A stretch of 64,000 nt of DNA from Candidatus Poribacteria bacterium (GTDB lineage: Bacteria > Poribacteria > WGA-4E > WGA-3G). Within the stretch, counting starts at the first letter, position 1; each line of letters starts with the position of its first letter. Where the stretch lies: positions 124,001-188,000 of the forward strand of contig JAPPBX010000090.1 of NCBI GenBank assembly GCA_026702755.1, in the 5' to 3' direction. The translations under genes were made by a program, and so were the position numbers. Positions 7,210 to 10,399 of the stretch are shown here, one piece after another. Below the pieces are notes generated by a model, which searched no databases, was not told the origin of the DNA, and saw only the letters and a program-made list of their open reading frames with translations.

Positions 7210-9012
7210 CTACTCCAAGTCGCGAAGTGCTTTTTCAATGTCAGCTTTGAGACTTGGATCTATACTCAGACGGATCTTCACATTTTCGGAGTCTATTTCC
7301 TTGCGAGTCGACCTTGAGGTGCTTTTTGGCTGTTGTAAGAGTTTCAAGGCAGTTTTGAGGTCTGTTTTTGCCTCCGAAGTACGCTCCAGGGCAGCATTTG
7401 CGACACCTCGATCGTAGTAAAATTTAGCATGATTCGGTTCCAACTGGATAGCCTTACTATAGTCCACAATGCTATCTATATTGTTACCCTGAGCCGATTT
7501 TACTTTACCTTGAATGTTATAAGCCATAGCAAGAACAGTATCCCCTGGTTTCAAGCGAATCGCCGCGTTGCAGTCTTCAATCGCACCTCTATTATCACCC
7601 AAATCAAACTTCGTGTTTCCGCGATTAACATACGCTAAAGCTAGAGGATCGTCCTTCGGTTTTAGGCGAATAGCCGTATTATAGTCTTCAATCGCGCCCT
7701 TCTTATCTTCTAAAGCAGATTTCGCAACACCACGATTGACATAAGCTGAAGCCAGAAGATCATTCTCTGGTTTTAGGCGAATAGCCGTATTATAGTCTTC
7801 AATCGCGCCCTTCTTATCTTCTAAAGCAGATTTCGCAACACCACGATTGACATAAGCTGAAGCCAGAAGATCATTCTCTGGTTTTAGGCGAATAGCCGTA
7901 TTATAGTCTTCAATCGCGCCCTTCTTATCTTCTAAAGCAGATTTCGCAACACCACGATTGACGTAGGGCCCAATATGGGCTGGATCAAGACGGATCGCCA
8001 TGTTATAATCTTTAATGGCACCCTCCTCATCTTCTAAGTTAGACTTTGCAATACCGCGACTAGAGTAGACATAAGTATAATCTTCACCCAGGCGAATAGC
8101 GGTATTATAGTCTTTGATAGCCCCCTCAAAATTACCTAACTTTTTTCTTGCATCTCCACGGCTGATATAGGCATCAGCAAAATCTGGTGCGAGACGGATA
8201 ACCGCATCATAGACTTTGATAGCATTCTTAAATTCGCCGCGACCCGCCGCATCCACCGCACTATAGTAGCGGATGAGAGGTTCCTCACGCCATTTTTCTA
8301 TAGGTTTTACTTGCGTCGGTATGTCTTTAAGTAATTCTCGGAGATAATTTGAAGGAATCGCGTAGCCGGCACCAACTCTATACCCTTGGAATGTAATGCC
8401 TATCACATCTCCATGAACATTTAAGACGGGTCCACCACTATATCCTTCACGATTGTTCCTCGCTCTGAAGTCAAGGAAATTGGGAGTGGTACGACTAATT
8501 CGACCTACTGAAACATCGCCTTGCAAGAATTTACCATCCTGAACCGGGTTGCCAATGACTATAATTCTATCATCCTTCTCCACTATCCCACTATCGCCGA
8601 GTGAAAGAACGTCTGCGTCTTCACCGACCATCTTTGCAACCTTTAAGATAACCAAATCCCGTTTCGGATCACTCGCCATGACCCCTTCAATAGTGTACCA
8701 TGTCGGTTTGTTCACCAATTTAGCAATGCTGACAGCACCATCAAAGGACTTCTGGTTGATAACGTGAACGTTGGTGGCAATTATATCTTGCCCGATGAAG
8801 AATCCACTGCCTGATGATGGTGATCCTTCAACACTTAAACTCCCTATTTGTACGGTGGCTGCTTTACCAATTTTCGCAATTTGATCAAGATCCGGTCGCG
8901 CTGAGACTTTTTCGCTTCGCGTCGTTTGGTGTTTGACGCTTGAAGCACAAGATAGGAAAACTCCTAATGCAAAGCATCCTACCAACGCTAATACTTTTTC
9001 CGCAAATTTCAT
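7210..9012 (-). CDS. Lipoprotein trypsin-like (S1C) protease fused to about nine TPR repeats
   Basis: 600 residues. A lipoprotein signal ends in FLSC (Cys22), so the protein should be membrane-anchored outside the cytoplasm. An HtrA-like trypsin fold follows with catalytic His83 (ATNVHV), Asp119 (KRDLVIL) and Ser192 (GYSGGPV), so all three triad residues are present. There is no PDZ domain; instead residues from about 240 onwards are TPR units of the NRGVAKSALEDKKGAIEDYNTAIRL type. Three of these units come from a nearly identical 111-nt tandem repeat. AAGGGGA lies 9 nt before ATG 9012. It is divergent from the EF-Tu-like gene. Periplasmic quality control, or cleavage of TPR-bound proteins, is inferred. 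Confidence 0.87.
   Translation of the reverse strand: MKFAEKVLALVGCFALGVFLSCASSVKHQTTRSEKVSARPDLDQIAKIGKAATVQIGSLSVEGSPSSGSGFFIGQDIIATNVHVINQKSFDGAVSIAKLVNKPTWYTIEGVMASDPKRDLVILKVAKMVGEDADVLSLGDSGIVEKDDRIIVIGNPVQDGKFLQGDVSVGRISRTTPNFLDFRARNNREGYSGGPVLNVHGDVIGITFQGYRVGAGYAIPSNYLRELLKDIPTQVKPIEKWREEPLIRYYSAVDAAGRGEFKNAIKVYDAVIRLAPDFADAYISRGDARKKLGNFEGAIKDYNTAIRLGEDYTYVYSSRGIAKSNLEDEEGAIKDYNMAIRLDPAHIGPYVNRGVAKSALEDKKGAIEDYNTAIRLKPENDLLASAYVNRGVAKSALEDKKGAIEDYNTAIRLKPENDLLASAYVNRGVAKSALEDKKGAIEDYNTAIRLKPKDDPLALAYVNRGNTKFDLGDNRGAIEDCNAAIRLKPGDTVLAMAYNIQGKVKSAQGNNIDSIVDYSKAIQLEPNHAKFYYDRGVANAALERTSEAKTDLKTALKLLQQPKSTSRSTRKEIDSENVKIRLSIDPSLKADIEKALRDLE
7661..7964. repeat. 111-nt in-frame tandem repeat inside the TPR region
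   Basis: Two full copies (7661-7771, 7772-7882) and an 82-nt partial copy (7883-7964) are almost identical in nucleotide sequence. Each encodes one 37-residue TPR unit rather than the usual 34. The lack of synonymous drift points to very recent expansion or gene conversion. Confidence 0.9.
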
Positions 9013-9084: not shown

Positions 9085-9162
9085 ACACAAACACACAAAT
9101 TGTGTTAACTTCAAGCGTTAATAGTCTATCACGCATTGGGCTGTTTGGCAAGTTTTTCCACA

Positions 9163-9191
9163 TTGCACAATTCCGAACTTTGTGCTACAAT
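9163..9191 (+). promoter_or_regulatory. Promoter of the EF-Tu-like gene
   Basis: TTGCAC (9163-9168), a 17-nt spacer and TACAAT (9186-9191), preceded by TGC as an extended -10. The predicted start of transcription is near 9198, about 40 nt before ATG 9239. Confidence 0.65.
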
Positions 9192-9238
9192 GAAGAGGAA
9201 ACTGTAGTAAAGAAATTATGCCCATCAGGAGAGAAAAT

Positions 9239-10399
9239 ATGACGGAGAAAAAAGAAATTGGACACCGCGGACTGCCTATCTGCACGCTCGGCGCGGACGG
9301 ACACGGTAAAACAACATTGACAGCAGCAATCGCGAAAGTCGTCGCGAGAATCGGAGCGATTCACACAAACGGAGACAGCGATTTTGAAGCACAACCCCCA
9401 ATCAGTCACCCAATCCGAGAAGGCGTTGGCATCGCCTACCGGGCAATCGTTTATGAAACCAGCGGTAAACTCTATACACAAATTGACTGCGAAACACACC
9501 TTGATGTCGTCAAAATGCTTGTCAGCGGCTCACCGCCAATTCAGGGCGCAATTTGGGTCGTGAATGCAGTCGAAGGGGTCACACCCGACGCTGAGGCACA
9601 TCTCCGACTCGCAAGCCAGATGCATTTTCCAACAGTGCTCTCCTTCCTCAACACAGACGATATTTCAAAAGACGATGAACTTTTAGACATCTGCCAAGAG
9701 GAAATGAACGAACTGCTGAGTGCGTGTGGATGGGATGCGGAAACCGCACCGATAATCGTTGGTGATGCCCGCAAGGCATTAGAATACAAGGGCAACAAAA
9801 TCACCTCCGCACAATGGCAACCGATTGTTGATCTTATCTTCGCGATGAACCGTGCAATGCCCACACCCGCGGATACCGCACGTTTACCGCTCATCATGCC
9901 TATTTACGAAATCACTGAAGAAACGGACGAGAGTGTATCCGTGCGTGGGGACATTGTACAGGGGCAACTCGCTGTTGGGCAAGCGGTAGATATTGTGGGT
10001 AAGGGTGATAGGATCAAGACACGGGTTCTCAGCACAAGGGAGGATGAAGTATGCGTCGAATCTGAACCCGACTGGTTGTCCGTTGGGCAGGTGCTTTGCA
10101 CACCGAAGACGATTAAATCGCATTCCGAATTCACTGCGATTATTTATCTACTTACACACGAAGAAAGCGGCACACACATCCCACTTATCGAAAATGACAG
10201 ACCTGACATTTACCTATGGGGTGTTGATATACCGGCGCACCTAAAACTTCCGCCAGAACTCTCCCTTATTACACCGGGTGCTTATGCCCATGTAGCACTC
10301 ACACTCGATTTACCTTTGGTGATGGAGGTCGGTACCCGATTTGAGGTGAAGAAGATGGGCGTACGAATCGGATTCGGTGTTGTGACTGGCATGGCGTGA
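9239..10399 (+). CDS. Degenerate EF-Tu paralogue (pseudo-GTPase)
   Basis: 386 residues aligning along the full length of EF-Tu: G domain, domain 2, and domain 3 (HSEFTAIIYLL..., ending VRIGFGVVTGMA, like the EF-Tu end VGAGVV). Walker A survives as GADGHGKT (18-25). The other GTPase motifs are altered: the switch I Thr aligns with Gly64, DCPGH reads DCETH (83-87, His kept), NKCD reads NTDD (138-141) and the SAL motif reads DAR (176-178). Guanine specificity and normal hydrolysis are therefore doubtful. ATG 9239 has AGGAG 7 nt upstream, which is better than ATG 9218. The frame is intact and the gene has its own promoter, so it is not an obvious pseudogene. Its role is unknown; it is not the housekeeping tuf gene. 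Confidence 0.85.
   Translation: MTEKKEIGHRGLPICTLGADGHGKTTLTAAIAKVVARIGAIHTNGDSDFEAQPPISHPIREGVGIAYRAIVYETSGKLYTQIDCETHLDVVKMLVSGSPPIQGAIWVVNAVEGVTPDAEAHLRLASQMHFPTVLSFLNTDDISKDDELLDICQEEMNELLSACGWDAETAPIIVGDARKALEYKGNKITSAQWQPIVDLIFAMNRAMPTPADTARLPLIMPIYEITEETDESVSVRGDIVQGQLAVGQAVDIVGKGDRIKTRVLSTREDEVCVESEPDWLSVGQVLCTPKTIKSHSEFTAIIYLLTHEESGTHIPLIENDRPDIYLWGVDIPAHLKLPPELSLITPGAYAHVALTLDLPLVMEVGTRFEVKKMGVRIGFGVVTGMA

Follow-up and report, generated by a model that had tools for sequence, protein, structure and literature searches.

What is an EF-Tu paralogue retained for once most of its GTPase motifs have been lost? Few proteins are as conserved across life as EF-Tu, and extra copies of tuf normally either stay identical through gene conversion or disappear. 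The locus that raises the question lies in the window, the whole stretch of 64,000 nucleotides that was analysed, which belongs to a Poribacteria genome of 5.84 Mb in 126 contigs; the order is uncultured and largely sponge-associated. The plus strand of the window carries an intact open reading frame (9239-10399; 386 amino acids and a TGA stop), the coding sequence of an EF-Tu-derived pseudo-GTPase.

EF-Tu ancestry and expression signals of the gene

The initial annotation of this DNA had described a full-length paralogue with three EF-Tu domains, and alignments to Pfam and NCBIfam models bore this out: all three domains aligned (GTP_EFTU, 68 bits; GTP_EFTU_D3, 51 bits). The score against the NCBIfam EF-Tu model (TIGR00485) was 224.4 bits, short of the equivalog cut-off of 522.4 bits. 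A search of the genome for the canonical tuf, which had been proposed as a check, located it elsewhere (G000:C33:17376-18521; 724 bits), next to fusA and genes for ribosomal proteins. The pseudo-GTPase gene sits outside this cluster, and its product shares 33% identity with the canonical EF-Tu of the same genome. By descent and fold (three-domain fold, grouping in the tree) the paralogue belongs to the EF-Tu superfamily; by equivalog score, by the five G motifs and by aminoacyl-tRNA contacts it does not qualify as a functional EF-Tu. A second EF-G-like gene, with an open frame of 725 aa, was also observed away from the canonical fusA (G000:C58:17451-17912).

The start was assigned to position 9239, because an alternative in-frame ATG at 9218 was not conserved upstream of the orthologues and the Shine-Dalgarno sequence fits the ATG at 9239 (Table 1). 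The intact frame, the good ribosome site and the extended -10 promoter, all noted in the initial annotation, were confirmed, and both signals were conserved in all the upstream regions aligned. The codon bias of the frame, ranking ninth among the 43 long ORFs of the window, was uninformative on expression. A further conserved block upstream of the gene is best read as the divergent promoter of the minus-strand neighbour (-35 TTGCCA, -10 TAGACT). In a scan of the genome, the exact sequence TTGGCAAGTTTTTCC occurred once and its near-matches were at control level; a regulon marked by this block was rejected on account of these control-level matches and of the better explanation offered by the divergent promoter.

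Table 1. Window positions of the sequence features of the pseudo-GTPase gene and its upstream region; tallies of motifs refer to 60 distinct orthologues.
Feature	Position	Strand	Remark
Conserved block TAGTCTA...TTGGCAAGTTTTTCC	9123..9159	-	upstream of the pseudo-GTPase gene
-35-like TTGCAC	9163-9168	+	spacer of 17 nt to the extended -10
Extended -10 TGcTACAAT (TG-C-TACAAT)	9183..9191	+	TAYAAT in 16/16 aligned relatives; same -10 from promoter scan
Shine-Dalgarno AGGAG	9227..9231	+	7 nt ahead of ATG; ribosome site conserved in 16/16 aligned upstream regions
G1/P-loop GADGHGKT, residues 18-25	9290..9313	+	GxxxxGK[ST] in 59/60; sole G motif retained
Gly64 replacing switch I Thr61 (G2)	9428..9430	+	Thr in 0/60
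DCETH replacing DCPGH (G3/switch II)	9485..9499	+	DxxG in 1/60; His in 42/60
NTDD replacing NKCD (G4)	9650..9661	+	NKxD in 1/60
Helix D, residues 147-160	9677..9718	+	partly retained; E147, E155 invariant
GDAR replacing GSAL (G5)	9761..9772	+	S-A of SAL in 0/60; Asp176 in 58/60
S275-E276, junction of domain 2 deletion	10061..10066	+	gap in 60/60
Invariant His313, remodelled T-stem face of domain 3	10175..10177	+	
Invariant Trp327 (Arg333 in EF-Tu)	10217..10219	+	
Invariant Lys371-Lys372 (Arg377-Glu378 in EF-Tu)	10349..10354	+	60/60; turn points at T-stem

GTPase motifs, tRNA contacts and predicted structure

Every residue that had been named as altered (Gly64, DCETH, NTDD and the DAR of GDAR) was recovered in the sequence and in the alignment. 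The accompanying statement that only the P-loop survives held for the loss of the G2 to G5 motifs and had to be amended on two counts: the P-loop itself is altered (from GHVDHGKT to GADGHGKT), and the Asp of DxxG (Asp83), the Asn of NKxD (Asn138) and the switch II His (His87) remain in the window's paralogue. Moreover, the distribution of constraint is inverted: the G domain, which in the order's canonical EF-Tu is the most conserved part, is in the paralogue the least conserved, with weaker constraint than domains 2 and 3 (1.28 bits vs. 1.05 and 1.11; P 0.016).

The P-loop, kept in all but one of the orthologues, hints that binding of a nucleotide or phosphate still matters. Such retention, together with that of Asp83 (60/60 orthologues), Asn138 (59/60) and Asp176, has also to be weighed as a changed base specificity, e.g., for ATP, with the protein signalling by binding without hydrolysis; the NKxE found in one family recalls the NxxE motif of YchF/OLA1, which are ATP-binding proteins. 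A change of this kind is rather improbable, given that a new specificity would be expected to be fixed, whereas the base-contact motif varies freely among families (NTGG, NTRN, NQTD, NKAE, NKAD), and that one orthologue lacks the P-loop. This sequence (L081:5977-7134, genome G042; GEKSNDL in place of the P-loop) is the most diverged of the orthologues; it retains a DxxG-like DAHG, the KK turn and W327, and its domains 2 and 3 are slightly better preserved than its G domain.

Permutation and Fisher tests on functional surfaces were run on residue lists of our own, the contact residues being those that we take from established EF-Tu structures; since the lists were author-supplied and the sequences are related, the P values are guides. 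The paralogues retained 6% identity at 21 aminoacyl-tRNA contact positions that never vary in canonical EF-Tu, vs. 36% at all canonical-invariant sites, and 0 of 3000 random draws were as low. This near-total loss contradicts the binding of normal aminoacyl-tRNA, where tRNA binding had been among the tasks suggested in the initial annotation, and it makes a spare elongation factor, from the sequences at hand, very unlikely. The deletion in domain 2, on which the initial annotation was silent, removes about 14 positions (E. coli 268-281, including Asn273) that hold part of the 3'-end pocket; near the deletion site, orthologues of family f4 (L072-L076, L079, L080) carry a variable charged insert.

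In domain 3, the positions facing the T-stem have mostly been exchanged and then frozen (H313, W327, K371 and K372), and the enrichment of invariant residues on this face had a Fisher P of 0.013 within the domain, for a contact list of our own choosing. The surface patches of the paralogue, assigned from sequence position, are putative. The domain 3 turn has been described as pointing to the tRNA T-stem, and a change to Lys in the EF-Tu of bovine mitochondria made canonical tRNA binding 13-fold weaker and let an armless tRNA be bound (PMC12221289). Lys372, which we align with the position of that change, may offer an analogy for RNA binding, not proof of it. Helix D of EF-Tu is the contact helix for EF-Ts and bL12. 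In the paralogue it kept 51% of the canonical-invariant sites vs. 36% (P 0.08), which is suggestive only of better retention than the background; in examining the helix, the EF-Ts/EF-Tu complex (PMC5770553) served as the analogy.

At the kirromycin and domain 1-3 sites, 14% of the canonical-invariant positions were kept, E378 having become Lys. These figures bear on a possible decoy that titrates EF-Tu-directed toxins or antibiotics. Sponge symbionts live alongside organisms that produce antibiotics, and both kinds of agent are known to target EF-Tu; a decoy, however, should have preserved the target surfaces that are exchanged here, and the order-wide presence and steady purifying selection described below bear no sign of an arms race, so that this role is highly improbable.

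The AlphaFold model (AF2, alignment of 56 rows) showed a confident EF-Tu fold (pLDDT 90.9). Its best matches among solved structures were EF-Tu, mostly in the GDP form (Z 44-46, rmsd of about 2 A), and superposition on EF-Tu carrying pulvomycin and a GTP analogue gave an rmsd of 8.2 A. The predicted GDP-like shape fits a protein that no longer switches; the preference of AlphaFold for this shape may also be a training effect by which one state is favoured.

Distribution, selection and gene setting

In a search of 85 genomes of the phylum, orthologues were detected in 71 of the 73 genomes of the same Poribacteria order and in none of the 12 genomes outside it. The two genomes of the order with no match (G002 and G014) are fragmented assemblies, 86% and 78% complete, and in G048 the orthologue is split across two contigs. 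A separate public collection, scanned with a reach of close relatives only, yielded 36 loci, all of them labelled Poribacteria. The family may extend further, since the sequences searched beyond Poribacteria were those of close relatives, phages and viral contigs only. A phage origin was rejected, the phage records giving only EF-Tu-like matches of about 30-33% identity, of which the annotated ones were host EF-Tu; no match was obtained in an alignment scan of viral contigs.

Identity among the orthologues was 97% for members of the genus and fell to 38% for the most remote members of the order, and no internal stops were seen in them, over dozens of species. Pairwise dN/dS (Nei-Gojobori, 305 pairs with dS of 0.1-1.2) was 0.06-0.15, with a median of 0.09. 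The altered motifs were shared across the order. The initial annotation had set the sharing of motif losses and the dN/dS ratio as its two tests, and on both its view of a pseudo-GTPase retained for a new task rather than decaying was upheld. A decaying or condition-specific spare tuf copy would be in keeping with the degradation of four of the five G motifs; the low dN/dS, the frames free of stops and the conserved promoter and ribosome site already refute decay, and the absent tRNA contacts contradict a spare elongation factor, leaving this explanation a chance close to nil. Since the parts that cut GTP and bind aminoacyl-tRNA were lost and yet selection is strong, an essential translation factor appears to have been turned to another job. 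Judged by its sequence, the protein is a pseudo-GTPase, with the fold kept, motifs for catalysis or nucleotide binding lost, and purifying selection acting on it.

The phylogenetic analysis (IQ-TREE) recovered the paralogues as a single clade inside EF-Tu (support 100/100), grouping with bacterial EF-Tu and apart from CysN (99/98); a tree of EF-Tu-like proteins had been proposed in the initial annotation. With a stem of great length (2.57 changes per site), the clade is placed within EF-Tu as a whole rather than at one particular branch. The paralogue has evolved a median of 3.5-fold faster than the EF-Tu of the same genomes, and the distances of the two are correlated, which fits vertical descent. 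These patterns are best explained by one ancient derivation from bacterial EF-Tu, which gave a single Poribacteria order a core pseudo-GTPase in single copy. For the toxin-like action that had also been suggested, no finding spoke in favour, the gene having no operon partner and a core, vertical inheritance.

The pseudo-GTPase gene stands alone, and no operon partner is conserved. Within its own family it usually lies between an rfaE-like nucleotidyltransferase gene and hisA, with a protease-TPR gene intervening between the nucleotidyltransferase gene and the pseudo-GTPase gene in the host genome; in other families the neighbours include peptidase M20, NamZ, PhyH, LRR and other unrelated genes. 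An operon partner was consequently rejected, the neighbours varying by family and being metabolic or without known role, and for the same reason the gene context gives a link to translation no support. The protease-TPR gene (window 7210-9012, minus strand) encodes a trypsin-like protease domain and, after it, numerous TPR repeats, of which several are near-identical and in tandem; a relative adjoins the paralogue at just 4 of 53 loci. The idea that the partner might be a second EF-Ts was rejected as well, given one EF-Ts gene per genome in and outside the order; the few extra matches were fragments of a single gene. The EF-Ts of the host genome (G000:C15:35860-36363) is of the short form of this phylum (about 200 aa) and single copy per genome. 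No match to a defence system was found with PADLOC.

The gene setting and the loss of all known tRNA contacts could both be accommodated by a scaffold or enzyme regulator outside translation, for which the EF-Tu fold would have been reused as in CysN, a translational GTPase moved into metabolism, in sulfate activation (PMC1780047). Against such a scaffold, which we consider unlikely, no conserved metabolic neighbour points to a pathway and helix D is partly retained. CysN, moreover, retained its GTPase motifs.

Proposed role and comparison with known systems

The protein is probably a non-switching, non-hydrolysing EF-Tu derivative that would act by binding to the translation machinery or to RNA. 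A fixed-shape factor of this kind is favoured here over a scaffold, and a scaffold over a changed nucleotide specificity; we regard the fixed-shape factor with about even confidence, its translation link being suggested by descent and by the retention of helix D (P 0.08). In the mechanism that we infer, the protein would no longer cycle between GTP and GDP states and would hold one fixed shape, predicted to be like that of EF-Tu-GDP, possibly with a phosphate or nucleotide in the P-loop. Its partner would be either a part of the translation machinery or some RNA that is not normal aminoacyl-tRNA, bound by domains 2 and 3 and perhaps also by helix D; like Tsr1 or Ski7, the protein might serve in assembly, hibernation or regulation. 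More tentatively, it may represent a previously undescribed bacterial pseudo-translation factor, which would have arisen by duplication of EF-Tu in an ancestor of the order, lost both GTP switching and the binding of aminoacyl-tRNA, and become a fixed core factor that binds ribosomes or RNA through the new invariant surface of its domain 3, a counterpart of Tsr1 and Ski7. The case suggests that the EF-Tu fold is exaptable in bacteria as in eukaryotes. An order-wide pseudo-GTPase moreover gives the search for new factors among uncultured symbionts a well-defined object; for these genes, automatic annotation as "elongation factor Tu" would mislead.

Within the collection of papers searched, nothing relevant on Poribacteria and EF-Tu was found. 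Compared with bacterial EF-Tu, the paralogue has the same fold, domain order and P-loop, and most of it aligns, but it is without G2-G5, the aminoacyl-tRNA pocket and the T-stem contacts. In a 2015 survey of translational GTPases, actEF-Tu was the only clearly distinct bacterial EF-Tu-like subfamily, and was presented as a condition-specific translation factor resisting EF-Tu antibiotics (PMC4342817). Also named EF-Tu3, and found in Streptomyces and other Actinomycetales, actEF-Tu is likewise a divergent paralogue beside the canonical EF-Tu; it is, however, a working factor, while the Poribacteria paralogue lacks the motifs and is set apart by its GTPase centre and its host. CysN is similarly a relative of the translational GTPases with a non-translational job, and differs in that the tree separates it from the paralogue. 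Among eukaryotic proteins, the pre-40S assembly factor Tsr1 structurally mimics an EF-Tu-type GTPase but is inactive, and it has been conserved as a protein that functions without hydrolysing GTP (PMC4895721); it differs in having four domains, in the loss of all five G motifs and in its GTP-like domain arrangement, and it is not known to be closely related in sequence. The yeast pseudo-translational GTPase Ski7 is an EF1-family paralogue that has kept the fold and the pocket and probably not hydrolysis (PMC4509514), yet it binds GTP stably in the active shape, whereas the Poribacteria protein has lost switch I, switch II and the base contacts. By analogy, Tsr1 and Ski7 may be considered the closest functional precedents for a paralogue that itself groups with bacterial EF-Tu.
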